NCBI GenBank assembly: GCA_016235825.1
Contig: JACRIL010000001.1
Coordinates: forward strand, 1-36,626
Length of the DNA stretch: 36,626 nucleotides
Source: Planctomycetota bacterium
GTDB taxonomy: Bacteria; Planctomycetota; Phycisphaerae; SM23-33
Direction of reading: 5' to 3'
Of this stretch, positions 6,011-30,811 are shown one piece after another. The stretch's first letter is position 1. Every line of letters starts with the position of its first letter. The notes beneath the pieces were generated by a model. The model made no database searches and was not told the DNA's origin. It was given only the letters and a program-made list of their open reading frames with translations. A program made the position numbers and the translations under genes.

Positions 6011-7243
6011 ATGATTGAAGGATACAGTGTCCAAAACTTTAAAAACATCGCAAAATTGCCGCAGTACGGCGAATATGTGGAATTTGATCGATTAAATGTT
6101 CTAATCGGTCCGAATGGCAGTGGCAAATCTTCGCTTTTGCAATCGATGGATTTTTTAAAGGCTTTTTTTCGTACTTCAGTCGAGCTTTATCTTCAGGAAC
6201 GCGAGTGGAATTATCGTGATTTGCCAAATCTGAGGAATACTGGAAAAGAATTGGGATGGAAAATCAAGGCTAGGCTTGCCCCTGATGAAAATGGCGAAGG
6301 CGGAGGCATTTATGTATATCAGGTTTCTCTTCAACCTAAGAGATATTTGGGGATAGGAGCCGAGTGTTTGACTTACCAAAAGAACGATATCTCCACACCA
6401 GAGACATTGATTGAACGCCATGGAAGAAAATGTTCGTATTTTGACAGGATATTAGGTCGAAGGGTTGATATTCAATTTCCGAGATTGCCTGCCAGTCTTG
6501 CAAGTACGTGGGACTGGGATTCTACCAGCGATAGGAAAAGGCATCCTGAAGCCCTGAGATTTCGTCGTTGGGTAGAAAGTTTTCGCTATTATTTGTTGTG
6601 GGATCCTAAGGTGTTGCGAGTTCCGGTTCGTGGCAAGCACGATGAACTCGGCACATCTGGCGAGCATCTCGCATCAGTGATTGGAAAAATGCGAGATAAG
6701 CATCCAGATGAGTACAAACGGTTGATAGATAGATTAAAGAATATTTTTCCGAACATGAGCAATTTGTCTGTTTTTGGGAAGGGTTGGGGGTGGAGATTTA
6801 TTCAATTGCATGAGAGAGGCAATCTAAAGGATGTGGTTTTCAACAGCCAACATGTTAGCGATGGCATTTTGAGAATGATTGCTATCGTAAGTCTCTTGTA
6901 TCTTGACAAGGTACCGTCGGTCCTGATGTTAGAGGAGCCGGAGAATGGCATGCATCCACAACTGGTACGAAGCGTTGTTCAAATATTGCGAGAAATTACA
7001 CATCGAAAGTCGCCTAACCAGTGTCAGGTGTTTTTTAGCACACATAGTCCATATATTTTGGACGAATTCTTGGATCATCCTAGCGAGGTTTATTGCTTGG
7101 ATCGAATATCTCCACAGTCAGGCACTACTATTGCAAGATTGGGCGACAATAAAGAACTCGTCGAAATGCAAAAGAAAATGGAATATTCGCTCGGGGAAGC
7201 ATGGTTTAATGGTTTATTCGGTCCGGCCAAGAAGATACGGTGA
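6011..7243 (+). CDS. AAA-family ATPase (OLD/ABC-type, DUF4276-associated)
   Basis: A 410-residue SMC/ABC-like ATPase of the AAA_21 kind. Walker A is GPNGSGKSS at residues 33-41. The middle is a long variable insert. Walker B is VLMLEEPENG near residues 304-313, followed by the H-loop segment FFSTHSPYILD near 341-351. Such ATPases pair with a TOPRIM-type partner in OLD, Gabija-like and Abi-type anti-phage systems. The next gene overlaps it and encodes a DUF4276 protein, supporting a two-gene defence module. The ribosome site AGGAGA is seven bases before ATG 6011, only 27 bases after aroA. Base composition is clearly AT-richer than aroA and aroC, which suggests horizontal acquisition. The exact system type is not established. 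Confidence 0.88.
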   Translation: MIEGYSVQNFKNIAKLPQYGEYVEFDRLNVLIGPNGSGKSSLLQSMDFLKAFFRTSVELYLQEREWNYRDLPNLRNTGKELGWKIKARLAPDENGEGGGIYVYQVSLQPKRYLGIGAECLTYQKNDISTPETLIERHGRKCSYFDRILGRRVDIQFPRLPASLASTWDWDSTSDRKRHPEALRFRRWVESFRYYLLWDPKVLRVPVRGKHDELGTSGEHLASVIGKMRDKHPDEYKRLIDRLKNIFPNMSNLSVFGKGWGWRFIQLHERGNLKDVVFNSQHVSDGILRMIAIVSLLYLDKVPSVLMLEEPENGMHPQLVRSVVQILREITHRKSPNQCQVFFSTHSPYILDEFLDHPSEVYCLDRISPQSGTTIARLGDNKELVEMQKKMEYSLGEAWFNGLFGPAKKIR

Positions 7244-7248
7244 TTGTT

Positions 7249-7902
7249 ATGAAGATTGGACTCATTACAGAAGGTACGATAGATGATATTCTGCTTCGGC
7301 CTTTATTGCGGCGGATAGCAAAAGAAAAGGCGAGCATAGATTGGCCGGTTCAAATCGACGATGGCATCGGCGAGATTCCAATCAGGCGTAGAGGATTCGG
7401 AGGAGTGCAAAAGAACCTGGAAAATTTGGTGAAATTACTTGCGACAAAGGATTCAGATTATGATATTTATGTCGCAATCCTTGATCGACGGACGGACCAA
7501 GTGCAGGACAAGATTGCAAAGGATATAAGGGGGAAAGATGTGGTTCTCGGAATAGCTATAGAGGAGATTGAGGCTTGGTGGCTTGGAGATCGAAGCAATA
7601 CGTTGGCATGGACAGGACTGAAGGATGACCGGCTAGAAGATGATTATAAAAGACCGCCATATAATGCGGAGAAAGACCCATTTCCAAAACGAACTCTTAA
7701 TTCTCTAATTGAGAGGTCTGGAAAGTTTGGCCGGTCCTATGGCGATGGCGATACGGTGTTGGCGAAAGATTTCGTTGAAAAACAATGGGATGTTGAGGTT
7801 CATCTGAAGGAAATAATTGCCGAATGCCCCAAGGGATTTGGCGATTTTCAGCAGAAAATGGCCGACGCGTTCAAAAGGACAAAGGCAAAGCAAAAACGGT
7901 AG
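7249..7902 (+). CDS. DUF4276 family protein (TOPRIM-like)
   Basis: A 217-residue protein beginning MKIGLITEGTIDD, the usual opening of DUF4276 proteins, with a Glu in the TEG turn. Further acidic motifs are AILDRR near residue 80 and AIEEIEAWWLGD near 105-115. This layout fits a TOPRIM-like metal-dependent nuclease fold; that is family knowledge, not seen directly. An alternative GTG start at 7240 overlaps the ATPase stop (GTGA). Coupling to the ATPase and shared AT-rich composition imply they work together, with the ATPase sensing and this protein acting as effector. There is no independent promoter before aroC, which follows after 34 bases. Confidence 0.82.
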   Translation: MKIGLITEGTIDDILLRPLLRRIAKEKASIDWPVQIDDGIGEIPIRRRGFGGVQKNLENLVKLLATKDSDYDIYVAILDRRTDQVQDKIAKDIRGKDVVLGIAIEEIEAWWLGDRSNTLAWTGLKDDRLEDDYKRPPYNAEKDPFPKRTLNSLIERSGKFGRSYGDGDTVLAKDFVEKQWDVEVHLKEIIAECPKGFGDFQQKMADAFKRTKAKQKR

Positions 7903-11487: not shown

Positions 11488-12435
11488 ATGAAAAGCAGGG
11501 CGATAATTTTTCCAAAAAAAGGCAAGGCGGTCCTGGACGAGGTCGACATTGGCGAGCCGGGCGACGATCAGGTGCTGGTGAAAAACGCCGGCTGCGGCAT
11601 CTGCCAGGTGGAGATCAAGAAGTTCAAGGGGCTGCTGGACGATGCGTTCCCCCAAAAGCAGTTGGGGCACGAGGGCGTCGGCACGATCGTCAGGGCCGGC
11701 AAGGCCGTAAAGGATTTCAAGGAAGGCGACCGGATTACGACGCTCTGGTATAACGGCTTCACCGAATACAATGTCGCCGACCTGAATCGCATCCGCAAGA
11801 TTCCGCTGCAACACGAGGCTGATTTTCCGTACTGGATATCCGAGCCGGCCGCGTGCGCGGTCAACGGCTACAAGGGGTGCGAGATAAATCCCTCCAGCCG
11901 CATATTGCTCATAGGGGCGGGGTACATGGGGCTGCTGCTGTTGCAGGTAATCTCCCGCTCGCTGGCCGACGAGATCGTCGTGGCCGACCTGGACAAGAGC
12001 AAGCTGGCCATGGCGAAAAGGTTCGGCGCCGGCCGCGTGTTCGACAGCGGCAGCGGCGACCTCGCCGCCATGGCCAAAGAGTCCGGCAAGTTTGACATAG
12101 TCATCGAGGCCACCGGCGCAAGCGGGATGATCGAACAGGCCGCGAGTCTGTGCGGGCCGCGAGGCCAGGTCATTGTCTTCGGCGACCACCGCCCGTGGAC
12201 CTGCCAGACCCGCTGGGCGTTTTTCGCCGGCCTGACGCTGAAGTTCACTCAGCCGGGCTTTTCGCCCGATTTTTTCGTCGAGTGGCGGCAGGCATGTCGG
12301 CTTATCGAGCGGGGCGTCATCAGGCAGAAAGACCTTATCTCGCACATCTTCAAGGCAAAACACTGTCAGGTGGGCATGGACACGGCCGTCTCGCGGGCCG
12401 GAAACTACATCAAGGGCTATTTCACATGGCTGTAG
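11488..12435 (+). CDS. Zinc-type alcohol/polyol dehydrogenase (MDR family)
   Basis: A medium-chain dehydrogenase/reductase of 315 residues, shorter than the usual 340-360. The catalytic-zinc motifs are present: C36-G-I-C39, G60-H61-E62 and E119 in SEPAACAV. The four-Cys structural zinc lobe is absent, which explains part of the length difference. The Rossmann nucleotide-binding turn is GAGYMGLL at 143-150, followed by VVADLDKSK with the Asp that favours NAD. Similarity is to sorbitol/threonine dehydrogenase-like members. The start is ATG 11488 with AGGAG six bases upstream; the frame stays open far upstream over the Sel1 gene, but that part is antisense shadow. Substrate is not predictable. 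Confidence 0.88.
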   Translation: MKSRAIIFPKKGKAVLDEVDIGEPGDDQVLVKNAGCGICQVEIKKFKGLLDDAFPQKQLGHEGVGTIVRAGKAVKDFKEGDRITTLWYNGFTEYNVADLNRIRKIPLQHEADFPYWISEPAACAVNGYKGCEINPSSRILLIGAGYMGLLLLQVISRSLADEIVVADLDKSKLAMAKRFGAGRVFDSGSGDLAAMAKESGKFDIVIEATGASGMIEQAASLCGPRGQVIVFGDHRPWTCQTRWAFFAGLTLKFTQPGFSPDFFVEWRQACRLIERGVIRQKDLISHIFKAKHCQVGMDTAVSRAGNYIKGYFTWL

Positions 12436-12439
12436 CGGA

Positions 12440-13492
12440 TTACTTCGCCGCCGGTTCGGCCAGGGCGGTCTTGACTTTTTCGGCCAGGTCGGAGGTTATC
12501 TTGTCGCCGGCGACGATCTCGCCCTGCGAGTCCGAAATGATGCCGCTGGCAAGGTCGTCCGTGAGTTGGTCGATCTTCAGATAGCCCAGGAATTTGTCGG
12601 CCCGATAGATGGTGAGCCTCTGCCCGGCGGCCAGGCCGTGGCGCTTGCCGACATTGACAGCCGCCAGGTTGTCCTTGACCGTGGTTATCAGGCCGTTGAT
12701 GTCGCGGGGTTTTTCCTTCTGGCCGGCGTCGGCGGAAGCGCCGGCGGTTTTGGCCTTCAGGTCGCGCACCTGCTGCTCCAGTTCGGTTACCCGCACCATG
12801 AGGGCCTTGTTGAGCGTCTCATACCGGCCGGCAAGGTCGGTGGTCAGCGCCAGCCGCCCCTCGACCTCCTTGCGGGTCGCGGTCTCCACGTCCAGCTTGT
12901 CAATGAGGGCCCTGTTCTGCTTTTCCTTCGCGGCGAGCTGCTGATCGAGTTCGGCGGTCTTCTTTGTCAGGGTCTCAAGCTCGGCGGCGAGTTTTTTGTT
13001 CCGGTCGGACAGGCCGGCAAGGTCGGATTGCAGGCCGGCGATTTTGGCCTGGCTCTCCTTTTCCTGCGCCTGCATCTGCTTTTCCTGGGCCTGCAACTTG
13101 TCCTTGAGGGTTTCCAGGTCCTTCTGCGCCGACGCGAGTTTGGTCTGCGTCCCTTTGAGGTCCTCCGCCAGTTTGTCGGCCCGCGACCTGCTGTCGGCCA
13201 GTTGCAGGGTGAGGGCGGCGTTTTGGTCCTTCTGGTCGTTCAGGTCGGTCTGCATCTCCTGGTAGGCCGCGAATATCACGTCGTACTCGCTCTGCATCTG
13301 GCGGGTGGTCCGGTTGAGTTCGTCAACCTGACCCTGGAGTTCCCGGGCTTGGGCGAGGCTGTCGGACAGGTCGATTTTGCAGAACCGCAGGGAGATCATG
13401 AGCTGGTTGAATTCATCCAGCGACACGCAGCCGGCCGACAGCGGCAACGCCAGACACGCCGCGGCTATTGATATCCTGATTCCGTTCGACAT
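12440..13492 (-). CDS. Coiled-coil envelope lipoprotein
   Basis: A 350-residue lipoprotein with the lipobox LSAGC22. Residues about 30-230 are an uninterrupted coiled coil rich in Gln, Lys, Asp and Leu, with repeats like LQAQEKQMQAQEKE. A linker leads to a C-terminal beta domain (about 255-335) with KRHGLAAGQRLTIYR, FLGYLKI and IVAGDKI, resembling domains found at the C-terminus of planctomycete and flagellar-accessory proteins. The start is ATG at 13492 with GGAG eight bases upstream; an upstream extension to 13630 passes through repeats. It ends four bases from the stop of the convergent dehydrogenase. The long antisense frame at 12566-13471 is an artefact of the periodic coiled coil. Function unknown. 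Confidence 0.85.
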   Translation of the reverse strand: MSNGIRISIAAACLALPLSAGCVSLDEFNQLMISLRFCKIDLSDSLAQARELQGQVDELNRTTRQMQSEYDVIFAAYQEMQTDLNDQKDQNAALTLQLADSRSRADKLAEDLKGTQTKLASAQKDLETLKDKLQAQEKQMQAQEKESQAKIAGLQSDLAGLSDRNKKLAAELETLTKKTAELDQQLAAKEKQNRALIDKLDVETATRKEVEGRLALTTDLAGRYETLNKALMVRVTELEQQVRDLKAKTAGASADAGQKEKPRDINGLITTVKDNLAAVNVGKRHGLAAGQRLTIYRADKFLGYLKIDQLTDDLASGIISDSQGEIVAGDKITSDLAEKVKTALAEPAAK

Positions 13493-28189: not shown

Positions 28190-29869
28190 ATGAGCAACAT
28201 CAATGTCAGCATCATTGATCAACGAGTTGGCAAACTAGCACAGGAATTCGCATCAGAATTTGCGGAACGGTTGAACATCAAGAACGACGTTATCAAACAA
28301 CGGTCCGCAGCTTTTGTATTTCTAGTCGTCCAAACAGTTCTTGATATTCCTGACGATGAAGCCTTGGACTGCCTCACCGAGGGGGGCAATGACTTCGGTG
28401 TAGATGCGATCCATGTCGGTGATATACAAGATGGGGAGTTTGCCGTCACACTCTTCCAGGGCAAATACAAGCAAAATCTTGATGGAGACAGCGCATTTCC
28501 TGAAAATGGTGTAACGAAAGTCATTCAGGCAGTGAGGTATCTGTTTGATCCCAGTGTTTCAATTCAAGTAAACAAACAATTGCTTGGGCGAGTAGAGGAA
28601 ATCCGCTCTTTCGTCCGCGACGGTGAGATTCCACAGGTTCGAGTCATACTGTGCAACAACGGTCAAAAATGGAATACTCAGGCACAGGATCTGATTAATG
28701 CCGCCGGATTTGGCACCCAAGTTACTTGGGATCACATGAATCATGATGACCTAATTGGGATAATGCAGTCGGCAAAATCAGTTGATGACACGCTACGGTT
28801 GTCTGGTAAGGCACTCATTGAAGAGTTTGATTTTCGGCGCGTGCTTGTCGGGAAGATTCCGGTAACCGAACTGGCATCGCTTTTTGAACGACATGGGGAT
28901 CGGTTATTGGAGCGGAATATCCGCAGGTATCTCGGATTGACGGGAAACCGCGTGAATGAAGCAATAAACAAGACCCTGAATGACTCGAAACAACAGAGTA
29001 ACTTCTACTTCTACAACAACGGAATTACGTTGATATGCAGCAAATTTTCCCACAATGCGCTACAGGGCGAGAACTACCAAGTGAAGGTTGAAGCCTTGCA
29101 GGTCATAAACGGCGGACAAACATGTAAAACGATTCAAAAATCGCTTGCAGACAGACTGCCATTTCCAGTCACGGCATCCGTGTTATTGCGATTGTATGAA
29201 CTTCCCGGCGAAGAACAAGACCTAGTGCGAAGCATAACATATGCAACCAATAGTCAGAACCCTGTTGACTTGCGTGACTTGCGTTCCAATGATGATAGAC
29301 AGCGGCTCTTGGAGACTTCGATTTCCGAACTGGGGTATCAGTATCGTCGCCAGCGCGGTGACTTTGCGATCAAGTCGACGGACATTACAAGCGCAACGGC
29401 TGCGGAGGCAGTTTTATCAGTCTGGCGGAAACATCCAAATCAAGCCCGATTTCGGTCTCGAGAACACTTCGGCAAACTTTATGATGAAATTTTCACTAGT
29501 GATCTGAATGGCGCTCAGGTGGTGATCGCCACGCTGGTATACCGGATTGCCGAGAACAAGAGGCGAAGGCCTCCCAATGGAGCCCCAGAGTTTCTTCCTT
29601 ACGCCTCATGTTTTCTGGCGATGCTCATGGGGCAGTATCTGCTGAAAGAAATTGGCATTCCATTAGGCAATCTGGACCACCGCAACTTCAAACAAGCCAA
29701 GGTTAAAGTGGAAGAGAAAGGCGAAGAATATTTTGAGAAAGCTGTCGAAGCTGTGCATGATGCAATTCTGAGACTGTACGGCGTGAAGCAGATATCCATC
29801 CTGTCCCTTCAGCGGCTTTCGGCGACTTTCCGACGAGGTGACCTTATCCAAGAGCTTGGAGTGAAGTGA
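28190..29869 (+). CDS. AIPR family abortive-infection phage resistance protein
   Basis: A 559-residue AIPR protein. The N-terminal region has an Mrr-like PD-(D/E)XK signature, GGND68-F-G-V-D72 followed by Q90-G-K92, consistent with a DNA or RNA nuclease. The AIPR core shows FYFYNNGITLIC near 271-282, VINGGQTCKTIQKSL near 305-319, YATNSQNPVDLRDLRSND and later LRRLYGV-like helices. Known AIPR proteins protect against phage by aborting infection, sometimes alongside BREX or DISARM genes; none is seen here. AAAGGG is six bases before ATG. Base composition is AT-richer than the secreted proteins upstream and scpB downstream, suggesting acquisition. It appears to be a single-gene system. Confidence 0.87.
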   Translation: MSNINVSIIDQRVGKLAQEFASEFAERLNIKNDVIKQRSAAFVFLVVQTVLDIPDDEALDCLTEGGNDFGVDAIHVGDIQDGEFAVTLFQGKYKQNLDGDSAFPENGVTKVIQAVRYLFDPSVSIQVNKQLLGRVEEIRSFVRDGEIPQVRVILCNNGQKWNTQAQDLINAAGFGTQVTWDHMNHDDLIGIMQSAKSVDDTLRLSGKALIEEFDFRRVLVGKIPVTELASLFERHGDRLLERNIRRYLGLTGNRVNEAINKTLNDSKQQSNFYFYNNGITLICSKFSHNALQGENYQVKVEALQVINGGQTCKTIQKSLADRLPFPVTASVLLRLYELPGEEQDLVRSITYATNSQNPVDLRDLRSNDDRQRLLETSISELGYQYRRQRGDFAIKSTDITSATAAEAVLSVWRKHPNQARFRSREHFGKLYDEIFTSDLNGAQVVIATLVYRIAENKRRRPPNGAPEFLPYASCFLAMLMGQYLLKEIGIPLGNLDHRNFKQAKVKVEEKGEEYFEKAVEAVHDAILRLYGVKQISILSLQRLSATFRRGDLIQELGVK

Positions 29870-29971: not shown

Positions 29972-30199
29972 ATGGACCAGCAGCAGGAAGAACTTTCAGG
30001 TCAGGCCGGGCAGTTGCCGGCCGAAACACAGGAATAGCCGCGGGAATCCCGCGAGCAATCGCACGAGGATGTTCCGGACAGTTCCACGCCGGCGGTCTCG
30101 GGCCGGTCGCGCGAGCCGGCCAGCCTGGTCGAGGCCGTCCTGTTCGGAAGCGACATTCCGCTGACGCCCGCCCGCCTGGCCGAGGTTGCAGACCTGCCC
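29972..30199 (+). pseudogene. Original N-terminal part of scpB, interrupted by TAG
   Basis: ATG 29972 opens in the scpB frame and codes MDQQQEELSGQ and AETQE, then TAG at 30035-30037 (codon 22). The frame continues without other stops and encodes SLVEAVLFGSDIPLTPARLA, the expected first helices of ScpB, directly into ATG 30200. No ATG, GTG or TTG lies between the stop and 30200, so intact ScpB needs readthrough, a rare start codon or a sequence correction (CAG to TAG would fit). Confidence 0.65.
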
Positions 30200-30811
30200 A
30201 TGAAAGAAGTCCGCAAGGCCGTCGCGGAACTCAACGAGCGATACGAAAAAATGGGCTGCTCGTTCCGCATCGACTCGGTGGCCGGCGGATACCAGATGCT
30301 CACCCTGCCGGAGTACCATCAGGTGCTTGAGCGGCTCATCGACACCCGCAAGGAGTCGCGGCTGACGCAGGCGTCGATGGAGACGCTGGCCATAGTCGCG
30401 TATCGCCAGCCGATCATCCGGGCCGACGTCGAGGCCATCCGCGGCGTAGCATGCGGCGAGGTGCTCCGCGGCCTGATGGAAAAACAGCTCGTCAAGATCG
30501 CCGGCCGGGCCGAGGTCGTCGGCAGGCCTATGCTCTACGGCACTACAAAGCATTTTCTGGAAGTCTTCGGCCTCAACAGCCTCGAAGACCTCCCCAAGGC
30601 AGAGGAACTTCGCGGCATGGCTGAAAAGAACGCCCAAGCCCGGAAATCCGACCAGGCCCCGCTGCCTTTTTCCGACCAGCAGCAGGCCTCGGACCAACCG
30701 CAGACCCCGCAGCAGACGCCCGCCTCGCAGAACGCCGAAACACTCCCGCCTTCCGGGCAGACATCCGGTCCGCCCTCCCAGCAAGCCGAACCCAACGCCA
30801 ATCCCGGTTAG
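30200..30811 (+). CDS. scpB: Segregation and condensation protein B (N-terminally truncated as read)
   Basis: ScpB pairs with ScpA and Smc in chromosome condensation. This 203-residue product has the first winged helix from VRKAVAELNERYEKMGCSF to GYQMLTLPEY, and the second from LTQASMETLAIVAYRQPIIRADV to GRPMLYGTTKHFLEVFGL, then a Gln/Pro-rich tail of about 65 residues. The first winged-helix helix is encoded upstream of ATG 30200, in frame but beyond a TAG (see 29972-30199). As read, the protein lacks about 25 conserved residues. ScpA is not in the window. A membrane protein gene follows after 12 bases. Confidence 0.88.
   Translation: MKEVRKAVAELNERYEKMGCSFRIDSVAGGYQMLTLPEYHQVLERLIDTRKESRLTQASMETLAIVAYRQPIIRADVEAIRGVACGEVLRGLMEKQLVKIAGRAEVVGRPMLYGTTKHFLEVFGLNSLEDLPKAEELRGMAEKNAQARKSDQAPLPFSDQQQASDQPQTPQQTPASQNAETLPPSGQTSGPPSQQAEPNANPG

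Follow-up and report, generated by a model that had tools for sequence, protein, structure and literature searches.

Background

Published work links proteins of the AIPR family both to restriction-modification operons and to DndB (PMC2292703, PMC3506569), and it describes them together with Z1 (PMC5608340) and in a combination of Z1, PD-(D/E)XK nuclease and AIPR (PMC9523054). Related in their parts are BrxU, a nucleoside triphosphate (NTP)-dependent restriction enzyme (PMC8565348), the ParB-type proteins GmrS and DndB (PMC4619093, PMC11662687, PMC12704722), and the Mrr-cat nucleases, including MspJI, with their (D/E)..(D/E/Q)xK motif (PMC3874153). Here we analyse a single AIPR-family gene within a 36,626-nucleotide stretch of a Planctomycetota genome (contig JACRIL010000001.1), referred to as the window. 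The gene is a member of a known, poorly understood defence family; the new information is the predicted ParB-like core of its product and the placement of AIPR homologues among bacteriophage exclusion (BREX) genes. Literature searches on AIPR, outside subscription papers and preprints, turned up no account of it as part of BREX or as a protein that combines PD-(D/E)XK and ParB-type domains.

On balance, we favour the reading that the gene arrived by horizontal transfer and that its product is a stand-alone defence protein of AIPR/AbiU kind, in which an Mrr/MspJI-type PD-(D/E)XK domain would cut incoming DNA, gated by a ParB/sulfiredoxin-like nucleotide-binding core.

Family membership and base composition

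A preliminary description of the window, made from the sequence without database searches, had placed a gene at exactly the boundaries given in Table 1 and had assigned it to AIPR. The Pfam search agrees with that assignment: AIPR (PF10592) covers residues 240–493 at 168.6 bits, passing the gathering cut-off of 25, and is the sole Pfam family in the protein at E ≤ 0.1. The top PADLOC match was AbiU (PDLC02357, E = 7.4e-46), aligned over residues 38–532 and positions 21–517 of a 537-position profile. In its core, its AbiU match and its single-gene format the locus is like other AbiU/AIPR members, whereas its host is taxonomically distant. The NCBIfam MzaE profile matched weakly (57.7 bits against an equivalog cut-off of 1050), and membership of MzaE, the AIPR component of MZA, was rejected on this score. 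Sequence searches of the PDB gave no match in one run and, in a second, four matches at E 0.11–0.78 that we took as chance.

The gene is the only AIPR match in its own genome. It is also AT-richer than its neighbours, as had been remarked earlier: GC content is 0.476 overall and 0.498 at third codon positions (GC3), against 0.615 and 0.767 in the upstream gene and 0.637 and 0.799 in scpB.

Table 1. Coordinates in the window of the AIPR-family gene, its predicted parts and a second candidate defence locus
Feature	Position	Strand	Basis or remark
AIPR-family gene	28190–29869	+	Whole open reading frame including stop, ATG start, 559 amino acids
Probable PD-(D/E)XK domain, Mrr/MspJI-type, residues 1–196	28190–28777	+	AlphaFold2 model and VIA alignment
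Conserved D68	28391–28393	+	55/55 in A4, 95/112 in A3
D72, predicted catalytic	28403–28405	+	55/55 in A4, 105/112 in A3
Q90-x-K92 (QxK), predicted catalytic	28457–28465	+	A4: Q 55/55, K 54/55
AIPR core, approximately residues 205–400, predicted ParB/sulfiredoxin-like nucleotide-binding fold	28802–29389	+	VIA, model
NGGQT motif, residues 307–311	29108–29122	+	N307 and Q310 112/112; proposed counterpart of DGQQR/DGQHR
TNSQN motif, residues 353–357	29246–29260	+	N354 and Q356 112/112
C-terminal region, mostly helical, residues 401–559	29390–29866	+	Model secondary structure
AAA_21 ATPase and DUF4276-like gene pair	6011–7902	+	PADLOC HEC-01A/B-like, candidate defence locus

A predicted nuclease domain at the N-terminus

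Residues 1–196 are probably a PD-(D/E)XK domain of the Mrr/MspJI (QxK) type. The AlphaFold2 model of the full protein (mean predicted local distance difference test score, pLDDT, of 92.4; predicted template modelling score 0.74) has a restriction-endonuclease fold at its N-terminus. Re-alignment with VIA, which re-ranks Foldseek's own candidates only and has a guide value of Z = 8, placed FokI at the top (Z 9.3, root-mean-square deviation (rmsd) 3.4, 139 residues aligned), with MspJI at Z 8.8 (rmsd 3.4, 129 aligned) and AspBHI at Z 7.6 (rmsd 4.0, 137 aligned), all three alignments lying inside residues 1–249. The top five entries were restriction endonucleases, followed by Hachiman HamA (6.5), RNA polymerase subunit E (6.2) and EndoMS (6.0). 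RNA polymerase subunit E (RPB5) itself has a PD-(D/E)XK-like fold.

Conservation was assessed in a hand-picked alignment of 55 homologues that excludes the long class (A4) and in a wider one of 112 sequences (A3). Because D68, D72, Q90 and K92 are near-invariant in the former, and D72 is retained almost throughout the latter (Table 1), the motif stands above chance. D72, Q90 and K92, which together make up a D..(D/E/Q)xK arrangement of the Mrr-cat type, are jointly kept in 94 of the 112 sequences. Within residues 1–200, only nine positions are conserved in 50 or more of the 55 A4 sequences (G65, D68, G70, D72, A73, Q90, K92, N128 and G158), G70 being invariant. The Mrr-like nuclease that the preliminary description had read from D68-x3-D72 and Q90-x-K92 is therefore upheld by both the predicted fold and the conservation of its predicted catalytic residues. 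The predicted fold and the motif are shared with MspJI, AspBHI and Mrr; MspJI, however, carries an SRA-like reader of modified cytosine, whereas in the window protein none was found and the nuclease is N-terminal.

The same region bears on a different proposal, published in 2012 (PMC3506569), that AIPR proteins are RNase toxins with an N-terminal HEPN domain. The modelled N-terminus is alpha/beta rather than all-helical, with strands at residues 73–80, 83–92, 147–156 and 178–183; residues 1–200 hold no R-x(4-6)-H, the only one in the protein being at 420; and histidines in that range are conserved in at most 42 of the 55 A4 sequences. AbiU2 counts as a HEPN protein in a later survey of HEPN domains, the available portion of which makes no mention of AIPR (PMC3710099). 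Given the alpha/beta model and the missing motif we discarded the HEPN identity, and an RNase toxin is the least probable of the alternatives weighed here.

A predicted ParB-like core

The preliminary description overlooked the fold of the AIPR core, which is likely to be of ParB type. From residue 212 onwards, VIA aligned the full model with ParB N-domains (Z 5.7 and 5.4), BrxU (Z 5.0, but with an rmsd of 11.1) and SspE (4.6). When the core was modelled alone (residues 200–402, pLDDT 87.0), 997 Foldseek candidates were compared and 18 chains reached Z 2; all 11 entries reported were ParB, Noc, KorB, PadC or BrxU, at Z values of 4.6–6.5, short of the VIA guide value of 8. Among them BrxU reached Z 5.0 at an rmsd of 4.7 over 115 aligned residues. 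No superfamily besides ParB-type/BrxU was present in the re-aligned list, and neither were sulfiredoxin, SspE or DndB structures, an absence that does not exclude likeness to them.

The core contains two motifs, NGGQT and TNSQN, each with two residues that are invariant in A3 (Table 1). Profile alignments, in themselves not significant, set NGGQT against the GmrSD motif DGQQR and the DndB motif DGQHR, while GmrSD and DndB matched one another at 87% (the DndB profile was built from four DndB sequences). As DndB is described as ParB-type and AIPR has been associated with DndB in print, a ParB-type AIPR core also follows indirectly. In the structural comparison the core matches the ParB-type fold of the type IV restriction enzymes BrxU/GmrSD, but those proteins combine it with a C-terminal HNH nuclease and DGQQR, where the window protein has an N-terminal PD-(D/E)XK domain and NGGQT; GmrSD_N and GmrSD_C were both absent from it (Pfam, E ≤ 0.1). 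Elsewhere in the same genome GmrSD_N matches were seen at G000:C44:11226-11807 and C220:7827-7922, the latter under the cut-off.

Likeness to DndB, reported to be an ATP-dependent repressor of ParB-type fold (PMC11662687, PMC12704722) and found similar to an AIPR protein in a published HHpred comparison (PMC8546572), could also mean that the protein is a regulator devoid of nuclease activity. The retention of QxK in 94 of the 112 homologues speaks against this, as does the lack of a Pfam DndB match in the window's genome, which leaves no Dnd system to regulate, and we regard such a role as very improbable.

Distribution of homologues and probable horizontal transfer

Scanning genome contigs returned 348 relatives. 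We retained the best 80, which come from bacteria and methanogenic archaea and show 56–67% identity in the best segment. Matches were also obtained in 95 plasmid records and 20 phage records, 12 and 3 of which, respectively, cover at least 80% of the query, and in 23 of 392 genomes of the same phylum, the window's own included. Viral contigs yielded no relative when scanned with the single sequence and 63 when scanned with an alignment. One homologue lies between the DinI gene and the portal gene of the P2-like phage RE2010, in a record whose annotation, and annotation only, reads 'prevents superinfection'. The AIPR protein of a same-phylum genome (G308, locus L003) is identical to one in a Candidatus Brocadiaceae contig (L106). 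Of nine relatives' stretches compared, one (G403, L200) carries a homologue of the SH3 gene that lies upstream of AIPR in the window; there it adjoins scpB at a distance of about 400 bp, and AIPR is absent. The other eight gave no SH3-gene match in the DNA examined, several because the contig ended. From its scattered spread and its carriage on plasmids and phages, the gene looks horizontally acquired. In one further genome (G088, L005 and L026) the AIPR gene is present in two separate frames and is apparently broken.

BREX genes beside homologues

Genomic context was compared across 88 loci, namely the best 80 of the 348 genome-contig relatives and 8 others. A BREX-cluster gene lay within about 6.5 kb at 19 of them, and at 14 of these 19 the AIPR gene is preceded by PglX and followed by PglZ, all in one orientation; at three (L051, L079 and L095) PglX/PglZ fragments of 92–113 amino acids were all that stood beside the gene. 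The other 69 loci had no BREX gene nearby; both flanks reach 2 kb or more in 44 of them, so some BREX neighbours may be hidden. PADLOC named the BREX genes in representatives (BrxC, PglX, PglZ and BrxL in L041, PglX in L038, PglZ in L035), the others being recognised via BLAST clustering.

Nine of the ten loci most similar to the window gene (at least 63% identity) are BREX-adjacent, L045 being the exception. A quick tree of 89 rows, which carried long-branch warnings (for example for L035 and L004), places the window in a group with ten BREX-adjacent rows and two solo ones (Shimodaira–Hasegawa-like approximate likelihood ratio support of 83), and the BREX label changes 11 times in it, at least 8 of the changes being forced by well-supported branches. 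The earlier statement that the gene has no recognised defence partner holds for this locus, which is solo in a genome without a PglX, PglZ or BrxL match, but not for the closest homologues; its description as a single-gene locus was accurate and extends to the 69 solo loci.

The gene could on this evidence be an orphaned BREX part, dependent on BREX proteins and now idle. Its grouping with BREX-adjacent relatives would fit, as would the missing BREX genes in its genome, which matched neither BrxL nor the PADLOC profiles for PglZ and PglX that recognise the homologues' proteins (the Pfam PglZ family was uninformative for this search as it misses the homologues' PglZ too); the fragments in L051, L079 and L095 indicate that BREX can be lost around the gene. 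The genome is, however, 93.7% complete, so that absence of BREX genes is not certain. The window contains no BREX gene, and tblastn with BREX proteins taken from the homologous loci detected no remnant there; its two best matches were of PglZ to the AIPR gene itself and were not upheld. Moreover, the reading frame is intact with all motif residues present, most homologous loci are solo, and the label changes in the tree are numerous. Together these points make an idle orphan improbable. A weak BLAST likeness between AIPR residues 102–238 and BREX PglZ was rejected after profile comparison (probability 0.5%, and 0.1% for the core).

No recurrent partner was found in the solo loci, where the commonest Pfam families occurred in 5 of 119 adjacent proteins (100–899 amino acids) and BLAST clustering of neighbours gave small groups only, mostly from related cyanobacteria. 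At E ≤ 1e-15, PADLOC recorded 58 families for the 119 adjacent proteins against 7 for 72 distant ones (families counted, not proteins), a weak hint that homologue surroundings are rich in defence genes.

In L104 a GmrSD (BrxU-like) gene follows AIPR at 11602-13485, inside the pglX-pglZ interval, and two NTPase-nuclease candidates thus stand together. The PglX of L038 (5496-9998), at 1501 amino acids, exceeds most full-length relatives by about 350, the extra stretch being an insertion near residues 275–540, and L043 (3049-9970) has a tandem pair of PglX-like genes upstream of AIPR. A 2026 survey of auxiliary nucleases in BREX operons lists ParB-HNH GmrSD, standalone PD-(D/E)XK proteins and PD-(D/E)XK-helicase/ATPase fusions; the available portion of that survey does not include a PD-(D/E)XK-ParB fusion among them (PMC12839542).

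Fused and separate nucleases

Seventeen AIPR proteins in A3 lack QxK, one of them being N-terminally truncated. A DUF4420-like gene adjoins 11 of these 17 (the 11 AIPRs being 592–718 amino acids long) and none of the 95 that keep QxK or QxR, a contrast which follows clades and does not represent 112 independent events; three DUF4420 proteins served as tblastn queries at E 1e-4, and the window AIPR is represented in the 95 through the short copies L001 and L002. Ten of the 11 DUF4420-adjacent loci also have a Z1 gene, and Pfam, which describes DUF4420 as a putative PD-(D/E)XK member, confirmed seven of the DUF4420 genes and two of the Z1 genes. In a second set, drawn mainly from same-phylum genomes with short flanks, QxK was kept in 0 of 7 AIPR proteins with DUF4420 nearby (two of the seven share motif letters) and in 20 of 22 without it, the exceptions reading QAS and SFK.

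Two MzaE-like phage AIPRs were scanned (L165 and L178), and PADLOC calls the three genes of these loci MzaC, MzaD and MzaE. They have the AIPR core in common with the window protein but are without QxK and sit with Z1 and DUF4420, whereas the window protein keeps QxK; Pfam AIPR_N is present in the AIPR of L165 and gave no match to the window protein at E ≤ 0.1. AIPRs lacking QxK often adjoin DUF4420 and none of those seen to keep it did, a mutual exclusion that favours the fused domain acting as a nuclease.

More tentatively, and with less confidence than we attach to the reading of the single gene, AIPR proteins at large might be nucleotide-gated DNA cutters with a ParB-type core and a swappable nuclease, either fused (QxK) or, in MZA, supplied separately as DUF4420 beside a fused domain whose motif is gone. 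AIPRs of the fused type would then shuttle repeatedly between solo loci and the BREX pglX-pglZ interval, acting there as a second restriction layer like BrxU.

Proposed mode of action

We infer a defence function for the AIPR gene, counting towards it the contexts of its homologues in the BREX pglX-pglZ interval, on plasmids and in a P2-like phage. In the mechanism that we favour, the N-terminal domain would cut DNA through D72 and Q90-x-K92, and the ParB/sulfiredoxin-like core would bind, and perhaps hydrolyse, a nucleotide. The core may gate the nuclease, much as BrxU controls its HNH nuclease through a ParB-type domain. Upon entry of a phage or plasmid, the released nuclease would cleave the incoming DNA, both this trigger and the choice of incoming over host DNA being guesses.

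Several results weigh against this proposal. At E ≤ 0.001 Foldseek found no match in the PDB to either the full model or the core model, and for the latter its first three rows were poxvirus RNA polymerases, ParB coming fourth at E 0.39. The core stayed below the VIA guide value, profile comparison of AIPR was not significant with either GmrSD (0.2% probability) or DndB (0.7%), Pfam detected no modified-base-reading domain in the 559-residue protein, and the QxK/DUF4420 contrast has the clade structure mentioned above. Sequence searches of the PDB gave no match in one run and, in a second, four matches at E 0.11–0.78 that we took as chance.

An abortive-infection effector, as the preliminary description had suggested, would use much the same parts differently: the core-restrained nuclease would sense infection, perhaps through a phage anti-restriction protein by analogy with PARIS and Ocr, and would destroy host DNA, the cell dying before phage release. 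The AbiU profile is named after an abortive-infection protein, the single-gene format fits, and back-up suicidal effectors have been proposed in BREX operons (PMC12839542). On the other hand, the 69 solo loci make the sensing of BREX inhibition unlikely as a sole mode, and the closest NTPase-nuclease of solved structure to which the core was matched, BrxU, acts on DNA by direct restriction (PMC8565348). We rate a BrxU-like attack on foreign DNA at least as probable as abortive infection; the latter is the strongest of the alternatives and, of the two leading outcomes, the one held with less confidence.

Neighbouring genes in the window

The placement of the gene between secreted-protein genes and scpB was described correctly, the two upstream genes starting with signal-peptide-like stretches (judged by eye) and scpB lying downstream. 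PADLOC gave no convincing defence match for three upstream open reading frames and the one after scpB. The window's second defence locus, also noted previously, was recovered as a candidate AAA_21 and DUF4276-like pair (Table 1), which is AT-rich (GC 0.43–0.45) and whose DUF4276-like match is under the Pfam cut-off. The scpB frame opens at 30038 on the forward strand, and in the list of open reading frames no start codon (ATG, GTG or TTG) appears ahead of 30200 (29972–30200). The ScpB domain seems to begin upstream of 30038; counting by hand, we placed an ATG in frame near 29972 and, after it, a stop whose last base is 30037.

Implications

The only AIPR mechanism that we met in the literature consulted, the N-terminal HEPN claim, does not fit this protein. 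A nuclease coupled to a ParB-type switch would instead provide residues to mutate (D72, K92, N307, Q310, N354 and Q356), would link AIPR to BrxU and SspE, and would propose why MZA has a separate nuclease gene. AIPR is annotated in many genomes, and the BREX placement of its homologues suggests where its function may be sought.
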